Shown here in pieces: positions 47,461-62,387 of a DNA stretch of 64,000 nt. This stretch comes from Dyella terrae (GTDB lineage Bacteria; Pseudomonadota; Gammaproteobacteria; Xanthomonadales; Rhodanobacteraceae): the NCBI RefSeq assembly GCF_004322705.1, contig NZ_SIZZ01000001.1, forward strand, positions 1,116,001-1,180,000, given 5' to 3'. A program made the translations under genes and the position numbers. The notes under the pieces are model-generated. The model worked only from the letters and a program-made list of their open reading frames with translations. It had not been told where the DNA came from and ran no database searches. Within the stretch, counting starts at the first letter, position 1, and each line of letters opens with the position of its first letter.

Positions 47461-47911
47461 GCCTTCGGCTTACGCCAGACTGTCGCCGCGAATAGCTACG
47501 CTTTTCGGCGCAAGTTCCACACATTTTTCACGTGAGCTACACGACACTCCGCGGCCGGGGTGTTCGCGCGATGGGGTACTGAACGTACCGTCATCGCTGG
47601 GGTAAGCAGCCGATAACGGCTGCCGCGACGTTGGTGATTCTGGATCTACCGGCACCGCACTGTCCGCCAGGACGGCAGGATCCCCTGCCTTGCATCACCT
47701 GCCGACGAACGATGCCGGCCCATGCCATCGGGCTGCGACACCAGGTGGGGAGAGTTTCGGCAAGCATGTAACAAGCCTGATACATCGGGCCTGTTACGCG
47801 CGTCCCTTGTGCGTCTTCGACGCATGGGCGCATGCGTTCTGTCGAGCGCCACTCCGTAGCGCCACCCGATGCGTGACTCGCTTGCAGCGCTTCACGACGG
47901 AGGGTTGGGAC
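47461..47911. other. Non-coding leader of the giant two-gene module
   Basis: 450 bases between the antiporter stop and the ATG of the first giant gene. The longest in-frame extension (to 47690) has Cys/His/Arg-rich translation without coding character, so I treat it as leader. Two small dyads are visible: GGCAGGATCCCCTGCC near 47673-47688 and the GACGCATGGGCGCATGCGTT repeat near 47818-47838. A promoter could not be assigned. Confidence 0.45.
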
Positions 47912-50900
47912 ATGGCCAGCAACATTCGGCGCGGCACCATCAAGACCCAGGGCGATCTGGCCAAACTGGCCAGCGACCCGACGTTTCTCGAAGGCTTCGA
48001 TCGCGCATCACTGTCGCGCGTCGACCTGACGCCCGGTGGCGTCGCTGCGATTGTCGATCTCGGGCAAGCGGTCATCCGCTCGGACGACTTTCTCTCGATC
48101 AACTTCTCGTTGATCAACCTCGACGTCGTCGCCGCGCAAGATGGCGGTCCCGCCACCCTGCAACCCAAGGCTGGCAAGACGGCGTACATCGTGCTGCGCT
48201 TCGCGCCGCAATCGATTTCGGAAGAAGCCTTCTATCAGATCCTGCCGTCGGATCCGCCGATCGATCCCAACTTCGTCGGGCCTTCCGACCCGAATGCGGG
48301 CCAGGAAGACCCGCGCAAACCGCCGGTGAAGTCGCGCATTGCCAACGGCAGCCGCGCCGTGTTCCGATTCGACGCCAAGGCACTGGCCGCGGCGAACATG
48401 GCATCCGTGCCCTATACGCTGCAGGGCATTCTCGACGCCTGCATGCATTTGCCGCTGAGCATTACGGCCAATGCGGCACGCGCACCCGTCAGGCGCCTGG
48501 TGATCGGGCCACTGTCAGGCGTATTGCTGAAGCGGCAGCGCGCCGCGTATGCAAGGCTCTCTCCCGGCGAACAGGCTCGCACGCTTTCAGCAGCATTGCG
48601 CAATCTGCGCATCGTCCAGAACGCGGGTGCCGGCGCAGCCCATTTGTTGATGCGGCGCGCCGAATTGCGCGCGGATGCGCTGACGCTCAACCCCAGCGAC
48701 GGCGCGATCGACAACCTCGCCAACGCGGTGTCGCCCGCTACCGCGCAACACCAGTCGCTGCACAGCAGTTCGGCGATGGCGACGTATGGCGTCATCGGCG
48801 CGGCGGGACTACAAGTGGTAAAAACCCCGTCGGTCACATGGCGCATCGCGCCTGGACCCGTCGCACCTACGGCCACGCAAACCGCGCTTGAGCTCCCGTA
48901 TCGCCTCCTGCTTTCGCCCAACGAAACCGGTCGCATGCTCCATGCGTCGACGGCCAGGGTTTTTGCGCCCACCGGCAACACGCCTTTGTGGCATTCGCGG
49001 CTCGCCTATTTCGACGACAAGACCGGCGTCACCACCGAAGGGCCGGGCAGCGGTACCGAATTGCGCGCCATCTGGGCGCGGGTCGGTCCGGAGTCCATCC
49101 CGAAGACCTTCAACGGCAACTACCCTCAGGGTGATCGTCCGCAGCCCGGCAACACGCCGTTCCGCCAGGTCATGGACGACTTCGATCGTTTCGAGATCGT
49201 CCACGAATCGAGCAATTTCCGCATTCGCGATGGCCTGCAGGAACCCATCGCCTGCAATCGACTGATGCTCTCCGCGCTCGGCGGATGGCTCGATGTCCAT
49301 GGCGGCTGGAAAGTGCCCGCCGGCTTCAGCGTGGAGCAGTGGGTCCATCAGGCCACGCAGGCGCGCGATCACTACGTCAAGGTGGTCTACAAGGGTTACC
49401 TGTTGCCTTTCGGCCACCCTGCGTCCCTGGTCAAAGTAACCGAACGCAAATTCCATCACGACAAGCCCGGCAATCCCGCATACCTGAGGCAGCGCCAGTT
49501 CCTGATCGTGCGCGAGCCGCTCGTCACCTTTCCGACCATGACGCTTCCGGCCACGGGTCCTCGACCAGACCGTCCGCAGAATTTCACCCGTTACTACCAT
49601 CGCCAGTTCTTCTTCACTCAGATCAAATGCCTCACGCACGTCACGCCGGACCTGATGGACGCGGCCTCCACCGATGTCAACGCGCACCGGCAACTTATGT
49701 TCTGGCCGTGCATCCCGTCAGCCAGCGGTGCTTTCCCCTTCAAGTTCAGCTATGTCGGAACAGACCTCGACGGACACGAACAGCAGTTTGATCTTGCAGC
49801 CATGTTCATCGGCAACGGATTGGCGAATCCGGCCAATGACCAGGACCGGCATCTGGCCGAGAACTATTTCAAGGAAGCGCAGACGGCGTACTGGGCCAAG
49901 GGCCCCGACTACCGCGGCGCCGACTTCAAGCAGCAACGCGTGACGGTGGCGCCAAGCCTGAAGTCCGGCGATACCGTCGTCGAACTGGGCAAAGTGATGT
50001 TCGGCGCGGAAGTCGAGCAGCTGCGCCTTGACCCGGCGACGCGCACCGGACCGCTGATTTATCCCATGGTCGACACGGCCGAAACACTCATCCCGTCGCT
50101 GGCCTATCTCACCAGCAACAAGAAGCCGAGCGTTATCTCGATGAACGGGCAGTTCATCGCCCGCAGGAAGGATTTCGACATCGGCGAGGTGTTTGCCGAC
50201 GTAAAACCCAACGGTCCGGTGCTGGACTTCACGTCGCAGGGCAATCGATCGGGCGGCTTCGTGCAACCCAATCTGGCACCGACCGGTTTGTCGCGACTGG
50301 CGGGGCCAATCTCCGGCCTGGCGTCGGATTTCAACACCGGCACCTTCGACGGTGGCAAGTTCTTCGAGAGCGTCAGCCCCTTGCTGTTTGGCTGCATTCC
50401 TCTTGGCGAACTGCTCAAGGCGCTCTCGTTCGACACCAGCAAGCTCGACAAACTGCCAAAGTTCGTCACCGAGGCGATGGATGCGGCGCAAACTTTCTTC
50501 AGCGCGCTGGGCCAGGCCAATGACCTGGTCGGTCAGCTGGAGACCATGGCGCGTGCGGCGGCGGAAGCCGCGTTGCAGCAAGCCATCAAGATCGCGCTCG
50601 ATCAGCTCAAGCCCCAGATCCAGGCGCTGGATGCCGCGACGTCGGCCATCTCCAACCAGATCGATCAGGTCAGCAACGCGGCTGACGCTCTGATCAACGC
50701 CATCCATACCACCGAGAAGATCTTCGAGCCGCCCCATGCGACGCTCAATGGCGTGATCGGCAATGTCGAAAGCACGCTCGACGGCCTGCTCAATGCGGTC
50801 AACCAGCGCATCTCGCAGCTTCCCGCCAGCGGCCTCTCCACCGCCGTGCAGAACGTGGTGTCGCAGCAACTGGTGCCGATCCGCACGCGCATCGCGCAGA

Positions 50901-52252
50901 TCCAGGCCATCGTCGATGACCTCAAGCAGATCCCTGCCCTGCTGGGGCCGGCGGGCCAGCTTTACGATGCCATCAGCGCCTTCCTCGTGCCGCCGGATCA
51001 ATTGGCGGACCTGCTCAAGGACGAGGGACAGCTGCAGTCGAAGATCCAGGCTGTCGGCACGGCGCTCGGCACCTTCCAAACGGCGTTCGACACGATCCAG
51101 CTCTTTGCCGGCGCAGTGCGCGGCACCATCGTCAAAATCGCCACAACCCTGCGCGCCATCACGGACAAGGCGGCCGACATCGCGCAACTGCTTTCGTCCC
51201 TGCTCGGCGACGAGATCACGATCAAGTTCGACTGGAATCCGACCATCCAGTCGTGGCCGCAACCGGGTAACGCGCTTTACAGCGGCCTCGGCACCCTGTT
51301 TCTCCCGCATAACCCCGATGCCTTCGTCGTGGGCGTGGAAGCGAAGATCAAGAAAAGTTCGGGCGAGGCGAAGGTCAATGTCTTGTGCGGGCTGAAGGCC
51401 TTCGATCTGATCCTCCTCGGCGACAAGCACTCGTTCATGAAGCTGGTGTTCGAGAAAATCGAGTTCCGCGCTGACTCGTCCGCCAAGATGGACGTCGACG
51501 TGAAGTTCGATGGCATCCATTTCCTGGGGCCGCTGAAGTTCGTTGAAACGCTCAAGGACCTGATCCCGCTCGACGGCTTCTCGGATCCACCCGCCCTGAG
51601 CATTTCGGAGAAAGGCATCGATGCCAGTTTCTCGATGGCCTTGCCCAGCCTTGCGGTCGGCGTGCTGAACCTGAGTAACCTCAGCCTCGGCGCCGGCTTC
51701 ACCGTGCCGTTCATCGGCCAGCCGCTGTCCGTTCGCTTCAACTTCTGCACGCGCGAGCAGCCGTTCTGCCTGACGGTGTCGATGTTCGGTGGTGGCGGCT
51801 TCTTCGGCATCACCATCGATCCGCACGGCGTGCAGTTGATGGAAGCCGCCTTCGAGTTCGGTGCCGCCATCGCTGTCGACTTCGGCGTAGCCTCCGGCGG
51901 CGTGCACGTGATGGCAGGCATTTACTTCCGCATGGAGCAGGACAAGTGCACGCTCACCGGCTATTTCCGCATGGGTGGCGAAGTCAGCGTGCTGGGCATC
52001 ATTTCGGTGTCCATCGAACTCTATCTCGCACTCAGTTATGAGTCGGACACCGGCAAAGCCAAGGGTGAGGCCACGCTGACGATCTCGGTGAGCGTCTTCA
52101 TGTTCTCCGTCAGCGCGTCGATCCACTGCGAGCGCAAGTTCGCCGGCTCCAACGGCGACCCTTCGTTCGCCGCACTGATGGGACCGGACAGTGGCCCCGT
52201 CACCGACACCACGACCTACCCCTGGCGCGACTACGTCGAAGCCTTCGCCTGA
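47912..52252 (+). CDS. Giant protein A of an unassigned two-gene module
   Basis: 1446-residue protein I cannot assign to a family. No signal peptide or hydrophobic membrane helix is seen. Residues 1 to about 850 look beta-rich and modular (for example the strand pattern SINFSLINLDVVAAQDGG, and later the folded segment YYHRQFFFTQIKCLTHVTPD). Residues about 855-1100 form a long heptad-rich helical region (QLETMARAAAEAALQQAIKI, then ISNQIDQVSNAADALINAIH), a likely coiled coil. Residues about 1100-1446 are a repetitive beta-rich domain with GGGGFFGITIDPHGV and ASGGVHVMAGIYFRM, recalling beta-helix or lipid-binding-type sheets. The ATG at 47912 follows GGAGGGTTGGGAC. It ends 24 bases before the second giant gene. 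Confidence 0.85.
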   Translation: MASNIRRGTIKTQGDLAKLASDPTFLEGFDRASLSRVDLTPGGVAAIVDLGQAVIRSDDFLSINFSLINLDVVAAQDGGPATLQPKAGKTAYIVLRFAPQSISEEAFYQILPSDPPIDPNFVGPSDPNAGQEDPRKPPVKSRIANGSRAVFRFDAKALAAANMASVPYTLQGILDACMHLPLSITANAARAPVRRLVIGPLSGVLLKRQRAAYARLSPGEQARTLSAALRNLRIVQNAGAGAAHLLMRRAELRADALTLNPSDGAIDNLANAVSPATAQHQSLHSSSAMATYGVIGAAGLQVVKTPSVTWRIAPGPVAPTATQTALELPYRLLLSPNETGRMLHASTARVFAPTGNTPLWHSRLAYFDDKTGVTTEGPGSGTELRAIWARVGPESIPKTFNGNYPQGDRPQPGNTPFRQVMDDFDRFEIVHESSNFRIRDGLQEPIACNRLMLSALGGWLDVHGGWKVPAGFSVEQWVHQATQARDHYVKVVYKGYLLPFGHPASLVKVTERKFHHDKPGNPAYLRQRQFLIVREPLVTFPTMTLPATGPRPDRPQNFTRYYHRQFFFTQIKCLTHVTPDLMDAASTDVNAHRQLMFWPCIPSASGAFPFKFSYVGTDLDGHEQQFDLAAMFIGNGLANPANDQDRHLAENYFKEAQTAYWAKGPDYRGADFKQQRVTVAPSLKSGDTVVELGKVMFGAEVEQLRLDPATRTGPLIYPMVDTAETLIPSLAYLTSNKKPSVISMNGQFIARRKDFDIGEVFADVKPNGPVLDFTSQGNRSGGFVQPNLAPTGLSRLAGPISGLASDFNTGTFDGGKFFESVSPLLFGCIPLGELLKALSFDTSKLDKLPKFVTEAMDAAQTFFSALGQANDLVGQLETMARAAAEAALQQAIKIALDQLKPQIQALDAATSAISNQIDQVSNAADALINAIHTTEKIFEPPHATLNGVIGNVESTLDGLLNAVNQRISQLPASGLSTAVQNVVSQQLVPIRTRIAQIQAIVDDLKQIPALLGPAGQLYDAISAFLVPPDQLADLLKDEGQLQSKIQAVGTALGTFQTAFDTIQLFAGAVRGTIVKIATTLRAITDKAADIAQLLSSLLGDEITIKFDWNPTIQSWPQPGNALYSGLGTLFLPHNPDAFVVGVEAKIKKSSGEAKVNVLCGLKAFDLILLGDKHSFMKLVFEKIEFRADSSAKMDVDVKFDGIHFLGPLKFVETLKDLIPLDGFSDPPALSISEKGIDASFSMALPSLAVGVLNLSNLSLGAGFTVPFIGQPLSVRFNFCTREQPFCLTVSMFGGGGFFGITIDPHGVQLMEAAFEFGAAIAVDFGVASGGVHVMAGIYFRMEQDKCTLTGYFRMGGEVSVLGIISVSIELYLALSYESDTGKAKGEATLTISVSVFMFSVSASIHCERKFAGSNGDPSFAALMGPDSGPVTDTTTYPWRDYVEAFA

Positions 52253-52276
52253 GCAGCGCGTCCCAAGGAGAACACC

Positions 52277-55200
52277 ATGGCCGAGAAGATCGTCTGGACC
52301 GTGCTCCCGCATGGCTTCGATGCACGCGGACAACTGCGTGTCTCCATCGTGATGTCACCCCGCCTGACACCCGACGCCGGACACGAAAACCAGCAGGCGC
52401 TCCTGTCAGGCTGGCCCGATTTCCTGGACTGGCCCAAAGCCCTGGCGCAGATCGGTTTCCAGCTGAAGATCGATGGCATCACCTACAAGCTCAAGCTCGA
52501 CCAGGTGGCCGAGAGCGCGTTGTGGACCCGGCTGTTTACGCCCGACATGAGCGTCGCGCCCTTCGTGTTCACGGACATGAGCCAGCACAACCTCAACTCC
52601 TTTCCGGTGCGCCACGTCGTGCGCTTTCTGAAGGATCATTACGGCGACCTGGCCGCGCAGCAGGGATTGCAGCGACCATCGCTGTTTCCGATCGATGGCA
52701 GTCCGCTTGGCCCCATGATCAAGTCCGCCGCAGGGGGCGAGCAATACAACCCGCGCATTTATCTGCAGCGGCGCCCCAACGGCATCGGCGATTTGTTGGT
52801 CAACGGAGCGATCGACGAACGCGTGCGTGGCATGTACTTCGGCAAAGACATCAAGGAAGTGCCGCCTACCGTCCGTGGCATTGATGGCAAACCAACGGCC
52901 AACAAGAAGCACACGCCCATCCGCGCGCTCCCGGCCGACCTGCCCGGCTCGCTGTCGCCCCTGTTCAATGCAAGCGCGCCCGCCTATGCGCTGTACCAGG
53001 CGAACCGCTTCTATTCACGGCCGGAGACGAAGGCGGCGCCGTATCGCGAGCAACCCGACCCGGCATCGAAGTCCCAGCCGATCAAGCCACCGGCATACGA
53101 CTTTCATCAGGTCGTGGCGTCGTTTAGCGATGCGCCCAGCCTGATGCGTCGCCTGGGCCTGGTTATCGACGCGACGGTCGAGGCCAGCGGTGATCTGGTC
53201 ACCAAGGCCAAGACGACCGCTGGCGGCACGCAGGGCCTGATGCAGCTCGCCATCCAGCGCCGCTCGCGCGTCCACGGCGCCGATTCGACGCCGCAAACGG
53301 CCTGGCAAATGTCGGGCACGCGCTTCGTGGTGCGCAGTCGCGACAACCACGATCATCGCGACGGCTTGCTGGCCCTGCAGAACGTCACCGAAGTCGTGCG
53401 CACGGACGATGCCAAGGGTGGCAACGATCGCCTGCCATTCAACGTGGTCCAGGTCGACGCCGATGGCTCGTCGGTGAAAACGATCAACTTCGTCAACAGC
53501 ACCCTGACGCTGCTGCAAAGCACGCCGTATCCCGACGCCGCCGAAGCGCTGGAGCGGGCCGGAGGCGCCACCTACACCACCAACGAAAACCAGGAATCCG
53601 TCCCCGCGTTGAGGTCGGGCGGCCTTACGCTGACGCGCCACAACCGGGCCAGCGATACGGCGCAGGATCTGGCATCGAACGCATTGAAAAGCGACGCGCT
53701 GGACGACGCAGGCCAGTCCGCACAGGTCGTGCTTTTTGCCGAAGACGTACTGCGCGGCTATCGCGTCGACGTGCGCGAGAACCGCACGGCGAAGTGGCGC
53801 TCGCTCTGTGCCCGCGTCGCTACGTACCGTGCGACGAAGGATCGAAGCTCGCTCGGCGGCGACGTGCACGACGAAGGTTTCGTGCATGCCACGTCGACCA
53901 CGACGCAGGCGGCGCCCGACGACGTCAACCAGAACAAGGGCACGCAGGATCACTATCTGCACGAAGCACTGTTCAAGTGGACCGGCTGGAGTCTGGTGGC
54001 GGCGCGGCCGGGACGCCGTATCGTGCCAGTCAATGAGCATGGCCTGATCCAGGAAGAAACGGTCAAAGCGCAGTCGGACGACGACTCGGTCGGAGGCGCA
54101 AGCCCCGTACTCACCACGACGACGTGGCAGCCCGGCACCCTGCCGCGGTTGCGCTTTGGGGAAACCTACCGATTGCGCGCACGCCTGGTGGACCTTGCCG
54201 GCAACAGCCTGGGACTCGACGACGGTTCACTCGGCGACCTGGAACAGGCAACCGAAGAAATCACCTACCGTCGCCTCGAGCCGCTCGATCCGCCTGCCCT
54301 GGCCCTGTTCGGGCGACTGTCCGAAGGCGAGTCGCTGGAACGCGCGGTCATTCGCTCCGATGTGATCAAGACCGACAGCGGTTACCAGAGCCTCTCGACC
54401 AGCCAGTACATCCAGCAAGGCGCTTACGCGACCAACGATCCGGGCAAGAGCGGCTTCGCTTACGTCGATACGAACATTCGCCATGTCGTGCCACCCAAGG
54501 GATCGCAGACGCTGGCCGAACACCACGGGTGTTTCGACAAGGCTTTCGATGCCGCCAGTCAGAGCGGAGGCGCCGCCATCATTCGGCAGGCATACGAACT
54601 GATCACCAAGCGTGAAGCCGGAACACTCTACGACGGCGGCGCAAGCGTCAAACTCATCACGCCACCGGTGGACAACGTCTCCACTGAGCAACCGCTCGAT
54701 CCCGCGCCACCCGAGGGTTTTCGGCTGCAACCGGGCCAGTACGTGGTGCACAGCGAGAAGCACCTCGCCACGCCTTACCTGCCCGATCCGCTCGCCGCGG
54801 CTATCGTGCTCCGTGGCGTGCCCGGCCTCACCGGCCCAACCGTGCTCGACGCGACGGACAACGTCCACGCCGACTACATCCCGTTTACCAAGGAACTGGT
54901 GCTTTACGTTCCGCTAAAGGGCAGCTGGCCGGACATCGATGGATTCCGCATCGCCATGGCTGAATTGCCCGAGGCCATCGATGCCGTGCCCTGCGTGGAC
55001 GCCATCGACCCGAATCGCGCGGTGCCGACGTGGAGCGGTGGCGATCGCGTGCTGACGATTTACTTGCGCAAAGGCGAGATCGCGCCAGTGCGCTACGCCA
55101 GCGCCGTGCGACTGGACATGATGACGCACATGGCCTTGCCCGCATGGACGGCGAATGCCTATGCGGGCATCTGGACCGCGATCCTGGCGATCTGCGGCTC

Positions 55201-57013
55201 AAACTGGATGATGACGCCCGATCGCACGCTGACACTCGTCCACGCCACGCAGCATCCCGTCTGCGAACCGACATTCAGGAACATCAGCGTCCGACGCCCC
55301 GAGGGTGCCACCTTCGCCGACTTCGGTCGCGAAACCTTCGTGCGATATCACGCGCGCAGCACGGGCCAGCTGGAGGTGCTGGGCGAGTGGATGGAATGGG
55401 TGGATGATCCGACGTCCGGCAAGTCGCCGTATCGCCGACACATGACGGCACGACTCAAGCCCGTCGCCCTGGCGCAACCAGGAATCGACGAAAGCGAGCC
55501 GCACCTGTCCGACTACGCCATCCTCGGCCCAGAGCCCGCGCTGGACCAGGCACGCCCGCATATCCGCCACGACTTCGGTGACCAGAAGTTTCGCTTCCTG
55601 CGCTACAGCCTGCTGGCCACCACCCGGTTCCGGGAATACCTGCCTCCGTCCATCACCGCCGATCTGGAACAAATCACCCGCCAGGGCGCGCCGTACCTCC
55701 GAGATGCACTCAGCCTGCCGCCGGGCTACTACGACGAGACCATCGACGCGGCCAGCATCGAATGCGCCGCGCCACTCCTGGCGTCGCAGAGCGCGCCACA
55801 GGGCTACGTGGTGCCGGCATCGGGTCGCCCGCAGCCACCGCAGATCGCCTACATCGTTCCCACGCAACACTGGACGGATACGGACAGCAACGGCGTGCAT
55901 CGGGTGATTCGCGATGGCGGCACCCTGCGCGTCTATCTCGAACGCCCATGGTTCACGTCGGGGGACGGTGAGTTGCTGGGCGTGATCGTCACGGCCGCTC
56001 CGCCCGATGCGCGCAAGCTGGCCGAATTGAAGGGCGATCCCAGCGAAAGCTATGTCACGCAGTGGGGACTGGATCCGCTGTTCGACTCCACGCTACCGCG
56101 TGGCACGCTGACGGCTTCAGCCTTTCCGCAGGCGGTCTGCGTCCAGAATGTGCGCTTGCCGGATGCCAACCATGATGTTGTCGTGGCTGGACACCGCGTG
56201 TACTTCGACGGTGAGCGCAATCAATGGTTCGCCGATATCCGCATCGACGCCGGTGACAGCTACATGCCCTTCGTGCGTTTGAGCCTGGTGCGTTTCCAGC
56301 CCTGGGCCATCGACAACGCGCACATTTCAACGCCGGTGCCTGCGCCCTTTGCGCAGCTGCTTCCACGCCGCCGCGTCGACGTCACGCATGCACGCGACAC
56401 CTACCTGTTTAATGTGTATGGCCCGGTTCCACTGCAGGGGCCGGCCTCGAGCTGGGGACTTTATCCCTCGCCAGCATTCAGCGCCTTTGTCCGCGATGTA
56501 TTCGGCCCGGGCCCCGGCCACAACCGCATCGAAGTGGTGCTGCAGTGGCAGAACACGACCCATGCCACCGATCTCGACTGGTTTGACGTACCCAACGCGC
56601 CGCATCCCAGCGCCGATGCCACGCCGCAACAGGCCGCGGTGGACTTCCTCCATCAGATTGGCGCCACGGCGCTCACCGGCTTCGATCACGTCCGGGCCAC
56701 GGCAGAGACATCTCCCCAGGTCGCATTGACACGCAGTACCGCGAGCGCGGCCAATCAAGCGATGCAGCTCACGCATCTGACGCCGGACTTCCTTGCACAG
56801 CTGGTCGCCCTCGACACCTGTGTCTGGACCGGGCGTATCAGCCTGCCGGCCGATGTGCGGGGCAAACGCCTGCGCCTGATGTTGCGAGAGTACGAACGGC
56901 ATTTCTCCGACGACCAGGTCAAGGTGGCGCCCTTCAACATTACCCAGCCCAAGGTGGTGGAACGGTTGGTGTTCGCGCGCGAGTTTCCCGTCACCTTGAC
57001 GACCCGGAGCTAG
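52277..57013 (+). CDS. Giant protein B of an unassigned two-gene module
   Basis: 1578-residue protein, not assigned. It starts MAEKIVWTVLPHGFDARGQL and has no signal peptide or membrane helix. Recurrent features: a Trp/Asp-rich N-terminal domain (GWPDFLDWPKALAQIGFQLK), a central RLRFGETYRLRARLVDLAGNSL segment resembling an Ig/fibronectin-like strand, many proline-rich loops and beta strands, and a C-terminal FDHVRATAE ... RLMLREYERHFSDDQ helical end. Start is firm: AAGGAGAACACC just before the ATG. It follows giant gene A by 24 bases, so the two form one operon and probably one complex or assembly. It converges with photolyase 4 bases downstream. Confidence 0.85.
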   Translation: MAEKIVWTVLPHGFDARGQLRVSIVMSPRLTPDAGHENQQALLSGWPDFLDWPKALAQIGFQLKIDGITYKLKLDQVAESALWTRLFTPDMSVAPFVFTDMSQHNLNSFPVRHVVRFLKDHYGDLAAQQGLQRPSLFPIDGSPLGPMIKSAAGGEQYNPRIYLQRRPNGIGDLLVNGAIDERVRGMYFGKDIKEVPPTVRGIDGKPTANKKHTPIRALPADLPGSLSPLFNASAPAYALYQANRFYSRPETKAAPYREQPDPASKSQPIKPPAYDFHQVVASFSDAPSLMRRLGLVIDATVEASGDLVTKAKTTAGGTQGLMQLAIQRRSRVHGADSTPQTAWQMSGTRFVVRSRDNHDHRDGLLALQNVTEVVRTDDAKGGNDRLPFNVVQVDADGSSVKTINFVNSTLTLLQSTPYPDAAEALERAGGATYTTNENQESVPALRSGGLTLTRHNRASDTAQDLASNALKSDALDDAGQSAQVVLFAEDVLRGYRVDVRENRTAKWRSLCARVATYRATKDRSSLGGDVHDEGFVHATSTTTQAAPDDVNQNKGTQDHYLHEALFKWTGWSLVAARPGRRIVPVNEHGLIQEETVKAQSDDDSVGGASPVLTTTTWQPGTLPRLRFGETYRLRARLVDLAGNSLGLDDGSLGDLEQATEEITYRRLEPLDPPALALFGRLSEGESLERAVIRSDVIKTDSGYQSLSTSQYIQQGAYATNDPGKSGFAYVDTNIRHVVPPKGSQTLAEHHGCFDKAFDAASQSGGAAIIRQAYELITKREAGTLYDGGASVKLITPPVDNVSTEQPLDPAPPEGFRLQPGQYVVHSEKHLATPYLPDPLAAAIVLRGVPGLTGPTVLDATDNVHADYIPFTKELVLYVPLKGSWPDIDGFRIAMAELPEAIDAVPCVDAIDPNRAVPTWSGGDRVLTIYLRKGEIAPVRYASAVRLDMMTHMALPAWTANAYAGIWTAILAICGSNWMMTPDRTLTLVHATQHPVCEPTFRNISVRRPEGATFADFGRETFVRYHARSTGQLEVLGEWMEWVDDPTSGKSPYRRHMTARLKPVALAQPGIDESEPHLSDYAILGPEPALDQARPHIRHDFGDQKFRFLRYSLLATTRFREYLPPSITADLEQITRQGAPYLRDALSLPPGYYDETIDAASIECAAPLLASQSAPQGYVVPASGRPQPPQIAYIVPTQHWTDTDSNGVHRVIRDGGTLRVYLERPWFTSGDGELLGVIVTAAPPDARKLAELKGDPSESYVTQWGLDPLFDSTLPRGTLTASAFPQAVCVQNVRLPDANHDVVVAGHRVYFDGERNQWFADIRIDAGDSYMPFVRLSLVRFQPWAIDNAHISTPVPAPFAQLLPRRRVDVTHARDTYLFNVYGPVPLQGPASSWGLYPSPAFSAFVRDVFGPGPGHNRIEVVLQWQNTTHATDLDWFDVPNAPHPSADATPQQAAVDFLHQIGATALTGFDHVRATAETSPQVALTRSTASAANQAMQLTHLTPDFLAQLVALDTCVWTGRISLPADVRGKRLRLMLREYERHFSDDQVKVAPFNITQPKVVERLVFAREFPVTLTTRS

Positions 57014-57017
57014 GACA

Positions 57018-58436
57018 TCAGCGCTGGCGGCGCATCGCCTGATACGCAGCCAGCGCCGCTTCGCGCGATTCACCCAGGTCAACCAGTGGCGCGGGGTAGC
57101 CTGTGCGGTCCAGAAGCGCGGGATCTTTCCAGGGTTCATGCAGCAGCGGCAGCGGTGCGTCAGCCAGCTCGGGCAACCAGCGCCGCAGATACTCGCCTTC
57201 CGGATCGAACTTCTTCGCCTGCGTGACCGGATTGAACACGCGAAAGTAAGGGGCTGCATCAGCCCCACTGCCAGCCACCCACTGCCAACCCAGCGTGTTG
57301 TTGGCCAGATCGGCATCGACCAGCGTATCCCAGAACCAGCGTGCGCCATGATGCCAGTGCAGGCGGAGGTTCTTGGTGAGAAAACTCGCCACGATCATGC
57401 GCACGCGGTTGTGCATCCAGCCGGTGCGCCATAGCTCGCGCATGCCGGCGTCGACGATCGGAATACCCGTTCTTCCCTGCTGCCAGCGGCGCAGCGCGCC
57501 GTCGTGGTCATCGGCCCAGGGAAAACCTGTAAACGAAGGCTGGAACGGTTCGCGCGGTGTCTTCGGGAAGTGGTAGAGCAAGTGGTGGGCGAATTCGCGC
57601 CAGCCGAGCTCGCGCAGGAAAGGCTCCAGGTCGGGACGACGCCTGGCGATGCCCTGCTGGGTGCGCTCATGCAAGATCCAGTGGATCTGTCGCGGGGATA
57701 CCTCACCGAAATGGAGATGGGGAGAGAGGCGCGACGTACCATGGCGCGCCGGCAAGTCACGAAGTCTCTCATAGCCCTTCAGGGCGTCATCGATGAAAAG
57801 CTCCAGCGCCTCGTGGGCACCGCGCTCACCGGGCTGCCAGGTGTCGTCGAGGCCTTCGTGCCACCGGATCCCCGGCATCAGGCCAAGCGTCTCGAGCGGC
57901 ACGTCTCCGGCGGCTTTGACCGAACTCATGAGGGGTATCGACAGCGGGCAATCCGGCTGAATCTGCGTCCGCAGGTTGCGCCAGAACGGCGTGAACACGC
58001 GATAGGGCTCGCCTTGTTGGGTCGCGACCTGCCAGGGTTCGCGCCACAGGGACGCACTGAAACTCTCCGCCACCATGCCTGCACCGCGTAGCGCTTTCTT
58101 TATCGCGGCATCGCGCTTAATGGCCCGGGGCTCATAGCAACGATTCCAGTAAACGGCCTCGGCGCCGGTGGCTTTGACCAGGCGCGCGAGCACGTCGGCG
58201 CCCGTGCCCTGCGCTACGTGAAGATGCGCCTTGTGTTGCGCCAGCGAGCGGCCGAGCTGATCGAGCGATCGATGCAGCCACCAGCGACTTGCACCGCCGG
58301 CCTTCCAGGCGCCTTCGTCGTCCGGCGCATGGATATACACCGGCAGCACCTGGTCGTGGCGCTTGCAGGCTTCGGTCAACGCGGGGTTATCGGCGAGACG
58401 AAGATCGCGACGAAACCAGACGATGGCAACGGACAT
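57018..58436 (-). CDS. phrB: Deoxyribodipyrimidine photolyase
   Basis: 472-residue class I CPD photolyase, which splits UV-induced cyclobutane pyrimidine dimers with FAD and blue light. N-terminal alpha/beta antenna domain (IVWFRRDLRLADNPAL) and the FAD/DNA-binding helical domain with HGTSRLSPHLHFGEVSPRQI, LRELGWREFAHHLLYHFP, GRTGIPIVDAGMRELWRTGWMHNRVRM and DADLANNTLGWQWVAGSGADA. The tryptophans of the electron-transfer triad are in these segments. Ends 4 bases from giant gene B, convergent. Confidence 0.96.
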   Translation of the reverse strand: MSVAIVWFRRDLRLADNPALTEACKRHDQVLPVYIHAPDDEGAWKAGGASRWWLHRSLDQLGRSLAQHKAHLHVAQGTGADVLARLVKATGAEAVYWNRCYEPRAIKRDAAIKKALRGAGMVAESFSASLWREPWQVATQQGEPYRVFTPFWRNLRTQIQPDCPLSIPLMSSVKAAGDVPLETLGLMPGIRWHEGLDDTWQPGERGAHEALELFIDDALKGYERLRDLPARHGTSRLSPHLHFGEVSPRQIHWILHERTQQGIARRRPDLEPFLRELGWREFAHHLLYHFPKTPREPFQPSFTGFPWADDHDGALRRWQQGRTGIPIVDAGMRELWRTGWMHNRVRMIVASFLTKNLRLHWHHGARWFWDTLVDADLANNTLGWQWVAGSGADAAPYFRVFNPVTQAKKFDPEGEYLRRWLPELADAPLPLLHEPWKDPALLDRTGYPAPLVDLGESREAALAAYQAMRRQR

Positions 58437-61200: not shown

Positions 61201-61265
61201 ACTAAGAGGCTGAGAGATTTTGGCGGCTTCCGTGGCCGATGAACCAGGGACTTTGGGAGTTCCAC

Positions 61266-62387
61266 ATGCAATGGGAAAGGCCTCGCTACAGTCGCAAAGT
61301 AGTTCGACGAGCTGGCAAACTCCTCGCCTTTGAGGACCCAGTTCCCTTCCATATTGACGTGGATGGACACATAGAACGCGCAGCCGATCTCTTTCGCGAA
61401 CTTAACGCACAGGTCGTTTTCAATAACTGGCGTTCTGCGCATGCGTACCCCCTAAATACCTTCAAAGTCACTCTACGCGACAGGGCAAGGCGCGTTGACC
61501 AAGAAGCGCTCACCGCTCAGCGACTCAAACGCTCACCATCGATAATCGCAAAGCTGCGGCGATTCGAGAATATGGACCTTGCTCGTATGCAAGATATCGG
61601 AGGCTGCAGGGCAATCGTCCGAGACATCCCCGCGGTGTACCAACTGTGGCACGCGTTTGATACAGGACGGCATCGCCATATCCTTGACGACTTCAAGGAC
61701 TACATAGAAGAGCCGAAGGAAGACGGCTATCGCGGCATACACCTCATATACAAGTACGTGGGTCGCGGCAACGGCAGCGTCTATAACGGACTCCGCATCG
61801 AAGTGCAGCTGCGCACCCAAATTCAGCATGCCTGGGCGACAGCTGTTGAGACTGTTGATCTATTTACAAGGCAGGCGATCAAAGCCGGTCAGGGGCAAGT
61901 GCAATGGCGAGAATTCTTTTGCGTCGCAAGTGAAGCGTTCTCAGTTTTGGAACACTCCGAGCCAATGCCAATGGAGGAGAGGTCTCGCATAAAAGCCTTG
62001 TTAGTTGACCTTTCCAGTCAACTTGACGTCTTCAATCGCCTGCATCGCTACAGTGAAGCCGTTCAGCTCGTCGAGCAGATCAAAGAAGCGAGCCAATATC
62101 TCTTGGAGCTCGATCTGGTGAACGATGAACTCCGCGTAAGGGGGTTTACCGCCAAAGAGCGTGACAAAGCGCAGAAGGAGTACACGGAGGCGGAAAAGCG
62201 CCTTGGGGAGAACGGCGACGTCGTTCTTGTATCAGTGGAAAACGTGAACGCCCTTCGCAAGGCTTTTCCGAACTACTTTGCAGACACCACTCTCTTCATA
62301 GCAACACTTGACGAAGTGCTGGCCTGGGAATCCGACGAAGTGAATAACCTCCTGATCGAATGGCTCAGTAAACGCCCTGAAGAATAA
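61266..62387 (+). CDS. RelA/SpoT-domain protein, possible toxSAS or small alarmone synthetase
   Basis: 373-residue single-domain synthetase-type protein. RelA_SpoT motifs: RLKRSPSIIAKLRRFENMDL, MQDIGGCRAIVRDI, DYIEEPKEDGYRGIHLIYKY and the nucleotide site IEVQLRTQIQHAWATAVE. No HD hydrolase, TGS or ACT domain, so it cannot be a housekeeping Rel/SpoT. The C-terminal 150 residues are a helical, charged extension (LVEQIKEASQYLLELDLVND). Start at 61266 is preferred because GGGAG lies 9 bases upstream; ATG at 61239 would add 9 residues. Located in a low-GC island, right after an XRE gene: candidate toxSAS toxin or phage-defence gene. Confidence 0.85.
   Translation: MQWERPRYSRKVVRRAGKLLAFEDPVPFHIDVDGHIERAADLFRELNAQVVFNNWRSAHAYPLNTFKVTLRDRARRVDQEALTAQRLKRSPSIIAKLRRFENMDLARMQDIGGCRAIVRDIPAVYQLWHAFDTGRHRHILDDFKDYIEEPKEDGYRGIHLIYKYVGRGNGSVYNGLRIEVQLRTQIQHAWATAVETVDLFTRQAIKAGQGQVQWREFFCVASEAFSVLEHSEPMPMEERSRIKALLVDLSSQLDVFNRLHRYSEAVQLVEQIKEASQYLLELDLVNDELRVRGFTAKERDKAQKEYTEAEKRLGENGDVVLVSVENVNALRKAFPNYFADTTLFIATLDEVLAWESDEVNNLLIEWLSKRPEE

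Follow-up and report, generated by a model that had tools for sequence, protein, structure and literature searches.

Heterodimers that are exported by the twin-arginine translocation (Tat) pathway with a single signal peptide are an established phenomenon, according to PMC10924467. Ni-Fe hydrogenase and formate dehydrogenase are such Tat-exported heterodimers, in which only one subunit carries the motif and the partner gene adjoins. Here we describe a pair of giant genes, denoted A and B, that shares these two traits in many relatives and is found in a 64,000-nucleotide stretch of Dyella terrae (contig NZ_SIZZ01000001.1, positions 1,116,001 to 1,180,000 of the forward strand; hereafter the window). 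The A-B pair differs from these enzymes in that it is far larger, that no cofactor motif or redox family was found in it, and that the signal is absent in the window's own clade. Our results point to A and B as two subunits of one giant complex that would be built in the cytoplasm and work at or outside the cell envelope, with B hitchhiking on the Tat signal of A and this signal lost in the window's clade; we assign this reading a probability of roughly 0.4.

Gene A spans positions 47912..52252 and gene B positions 52277..57013, both on the forward strand, and they encode proteins of 1446 and 1578 residues, respectively. A preliminary description of the locus had reported two large genes 24 bases apart with good ribosome-binding sites, and we recovered exactly this arrangement: both genes start with ATG and are preceded by the motifs GGAGGG (47895..47900, for A) and AGGAGA (52266..52271, for B), identified by sequence. 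The open frame of A has an earlier possible start, a TTG at 47690; the evidence supports the ATG at 47912 as the likelier one, because it has the ribosome-binding site and because the Dyella japonica homologue aligns from residue 1. Both genes are real, with frames conserved more than chance would allow: within Dyella the two retain 68-69% identity, and they occur across several bacterial groups.

A pattern-based scan of genome contigs from 84,980 genomes (species) yielded 100 candidate stretches, of which 63 were confirmed as loci, and in 61 of these B lies downstream of A on the same strand. The two loci without a visible B are those in which the contig has 98 bases left after A (L071) or in which A runs off the end of the contig (L072), leaving the pairing at 61 of 61 testable loci. 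Profile searches for A and for B, made separately on one set of 398 Pseudomonadota genomes, detected A in five and B in the same five, and the pairwise distances of A and B are correlated (r = 0.974 over 62 pairs; 0 of 999 permutations). A and B behave as one unit that is inherited together, a rare but ancient pair: full-length A occurs in its own genome only among 299 genomes of the order, and the pair is found in Alpha-, Beta- and Gammaproteobacteria, in Acidobacteriota/Aminicenantia and in actinomycetes. In the tree of B the window groups with Dyella japonica and next with a betaproteobacterial bin, within a proteobacterial clade of 43 rows.

We searched for a twin-arginine motif (RRx[FLIVM][LIVMFA] with an uncharged hydrophobic stretch after it) in the first 110 residues of each protein, or the first 130 in further loci. 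The motif is present in 18 of 70 A proteins and in none of 66 B proteins, and the further loci give six of seven for A and none of seven for B, so that B lacks it throughout (0/73). Among other open reading frames of at least 300 residues it occurs in 28 of 1166, a background that still includes some A genes. Counted by clade, 24 of the 33 A rows outside the window's clade carry the motif, where one gene (L002/L089) is counted twice and one row (L065) is without its start; the bearers are found in actinomycetes, Acidobacteriota/Aminicenantia, Nitrotoga and rhizobial or roseobacterial plasmids. At one locus (L008) tatA lies 50 bases after B, and the A of this locus has the only N-terminus above a curated cut-off (NCBIfam TIGR01409; L057 falls below it).

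Several observations weigh against export by Tat or against strict pairing. The motif is missing from window A and from all 44 A rows inside its clade (L003 being represented by its C-terminal open reading frame only, and L040 lacking its start). The curated Tat models are weakly supportive, with the Pfam TAT_signal model below cut-off in L006, L008 and L009. Remnants of B without A exist on three rhizobial plasmids (L012, L108 and L109), and a remnant of A without B on one (L011). Finally, the C-terminal domain of A stands alone, without B, in two genomes (G056 and G942), where the adjacent genes are giant and similar to each other (BLASTP E 1e-30), and unlike B. The expectation that A is not often found without B was borne out for full-length A; its C-terminal domain also has a different partner in these two genomes. 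Since it occurs with another giant partner too (L089, L118), this domain might, on the reading of an export-coupled machine discussed below, form the common core of a broader class.

The absence of a signal peptide and membrane helix from window A and B, also noted in the preliminary description, agrees with our results: no signal model of Pfam or NCBIfam matches the first 140 residues of A, and a hydropathy survey with family scans revealed no Sec signal in A. The highest 19-residue hydropathy is 1.76 in A, where the residues line up with a predicted beta strand, and B peaks at 1.44, so that neither protein has an obvious membrane helix. The inference that the two form one cytoplasmic or non-classically exported assembly is partly supported: it may be correct for the window's clade, where the motif is missing, and does not extend to the family elsewhere, in which A mostly bears the twin-arginine motif and hydrophobic stretch and B never does.

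We propose that A and B fold and assemble in the cytoplasm, in physical contact with each other. In most lineages outside the window's clade both would then leave together through the Tat translocase, A providing the signal and B travelling as hitchhiker. In the window's proteobacterial clade the Tat signal would have been lost, rather than gained elsewhere, and the complex would stay inside or exit by another route; the Tat label requires five changes on the B tree. Once outside, the amphipathic beta-meander of A would contact membrane or lipid, the fibronectin-III/Ig-like string of B would serve as the reach or binding part, and some distant pairs might act with an exported hydrolase encoded alongside. 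Taken as a whole, an undescribed export-coupled machine that preassembles, exits as one folded body, meets membranes through its amphipathic domain and employs lineage-specific hydrolases is a doubtful proposition, somewhat less so than the alternatives considered below. Should the two proteins leave the cell as a single folded body, they would make up a very large hitchhiker complex of the Tat pathway and put to the test what this translocase can pass.

The predicted folds bear on the membrane or lipid contact suggested above. Residues 51-850 of A (48062..50461, forward strand) are rich in beta strands and are conserved as far as Acidobacteriota, and in pieces as far as actinomycetes, while residues 1150-1425 (51359..52186, forward strand) are among the best conserved parts of A. 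The amphipathicity of this C-terminal domain is seen in the sequence itself, and in the model of a relative it is predicted to form a strongly amphipathic beta-meander with the shape of a partial outer-membrane barrel, which offers a practical starting point for studying contact with membrane or lipid. In the model this meander is long and antiparallel, and its curvature, like that of a possible and perhaps open barrel, resembles OmpG, BtuB, LamB and LptD. A true outer-membrane beta-barrel formed by A, with B as its extracellular or periplasmic partner, is nevertheless quite improbable: A lacks a Sec signal, the domain is kept in actinomycetes, which have no typical outer membrane, and short turns are predicted on both sides of the meander. 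Nor does the last strand of the model lead to the usual terminal aromatic residue; in window A and the A of L057 about 25 residues follow it, with AFA as the last three.

The same domain invites comparison with large lipid transfer proteins. The window-type pair might be a cytoplasmic lipid-binding particle or scaffold, in which an amphipathic beta sheet and amphipathic helices hold lipid or polymer, with export confined to other branches. Consistent with this, all 44 A rows of the window's clade besides the window itself lack the signal, window A has the order beta, helical, amphipathic beta, and Foldseek gave matches to microsomal triglyceride transfer protein at E 1.5e-3 and to apolipoprotein B at E 0.025. 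The probabilities of these matches are low, however (0.41-0.44 and 0.08, respectively), the helical section forms a coiled coil not shared by other members, and the Tat-bearing relatives point to export; we consider such a particle unlikely.

The helical section of A that had been placed at about residues 855-1100 (50474..51211, forward strand) indeed matches coiled-coil-type models only: a PHROG tape-measure family at E 3e-5, coiled-coil designs in the PDB at E 8e-6 and, as best Pfam match, one at 0.008; a uridine phosphorylase row (E 0.046) overlaps it as well. This insert is missing in the aligned streptomycete and Rhizobium phaseoli relatives and is thus not essential. Outside it we were not able to find any match for A in Pfam, NCBIfam, PHROGs, PADLOC or PDB sequences, and with an E-value limit of 1 B had no match in Pfam, NCBIfam, PHROGs or PDB sequences; the strong full-length homology to a characterised family that would have spoken against the earlier description did not turn up in these searches. 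The Ig-like segment proposed for B fits the fibronectin-III/Ig-like domains that make up the model of a relative's B, a domain type that parts of B share with the alpha-2-macroglobulin family, the insulin receptor and phage tail fibres. Given the tape-measure match, and the viral tail proteins among the fold matches of B, the pair could be imagined as the remnant of a phage or contractile injection system, with A as tape measure and B as tail fibre. This origin is hardly credible: the PHROG match is confined to the coiled coil, no relative appeared in a phage collection queried with window B and the B of L103, none was confirmed for A in viral contigs (136 candidate stretches), and no tail genes were recognised beside the loci viewed.

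No description of the pair was found in the open-licence literature. By these libraries and this literature A-B fits no known kind. The pair is kept together in proteobacteria, Acidobacteriota and actinomycetes and totals about 3000 residues in the window; it is unnamed, and our searches placed it in no family of Pfam or NCBIfam and gave no relative with a solved structure. A relation between A and B themselves was examined and rejected (hhalign E 0.27). Proteins with DUF6603 (Pfam PF20248) resemble A in size and in having a strongly amphipathic beta domain, and at the three gammaproteobacterial loci viewed they are followed by further large genes. These giants (L090, L091 and L092; 3110-3390 residues) include two whose next genes look alike by eye (L090 and L092, with an LPWER motif). 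DUF6603 as parent of the C-terminal domain of A was set aside as unproven, with a profile-profile probability of 6% vs 14% for the reversed control, and its Pfam model matches neither window A nor the six relatives' A proteins scanned.

We found no third gene that is universal beside the pair and no neighbour that recurs across phyla; the largest clusters of neighbours consist of widespread transporter, regulator or methyltransferase types or reflect synteny of close relatives. Among 11 distant pairs (L008, L009, L010, L013, L075, L103-L107 and L110), four are followed on the same strand by a peptidase gene, a raw count from a scan that covered the downstream genes of all but L008, L013, L106, L107 and L110. 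These are a trypsin followed by a lysozyme-M23 gene (L103), an M35 peptidase (L105), an M35 peptidase about 2 kb away (L009) and an astacin (L010). The next-but-one gene of L104 lies just under the VWA7_N cut-off, an M23 gene stands beside the B fragment of L012, an extensin-like gene follows the partner gene in L118, and a patatin is nearby in two window-type loci (L053 and L003). The variety of these hydrolases, together with the membrane-barrel-like C-terminal domain, would suit a delivery or binding platform for exported peptidases and cell-wall hydrolases, used in competition or predation, which the window's clade keeps without an adjacent hydrolase gene. We regard such a platform as improbable too, much as the lipid particle: no hydrolase recurs beside the pair in the window's clade, none was seen at seven of the 11 distant pairs, and the searches brought up no family linked to toxins, immunity or secretion. 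A separate observation at L118 (9572-10021) is a weak match to Trypco2 (19.5 bits vs a cut-off of 24.2); PMC7159879 describes this domain next to trypsin in conflict systems.

In the window the flanking genes are as ordinary as initially described (by Pfam, an MFS transporter, a Na/H exchanger and a photolyase), and the GC content of A (0.625) and B (0.644) resembles that of the neighbours (0.641-0.647). The convergent photolyase gene directly after B (57018-58436) also lies convergent after B in nine Acidobacteriota/Aminicenantia loci, with 33% identity to the window's in the pair compared. We dropped it as a functional partner, because the genes called next to the pair in Dyella japonica, the closest relative, do not include it, and take its presence as chance or local synteny.

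Some individual cases complete the picture of A. A weak match in G205 to the helical part of A (E 4.7e-4) was judged to be chance, and L032, which gave only a short match to A by BLAST, contains a complete A on further comparison. In Pseudoxanthomonas sp. NC8 (L074) the pair is present with both genes broken into many frames or pieces. In Achromobacter pulmonis ANB-1 the beginning of the A gene is repeated in two partial copies upstream of the full gene (L043, 5172-8945), 100% identical to it over 216 and 621 residues, representing either a recent tandem duplication or an assembly artefact. Elsewhere in the window, a RelA/SpoT-domain protein is encoded at 61239-62387, within a stretch of lower GC content (0.55).
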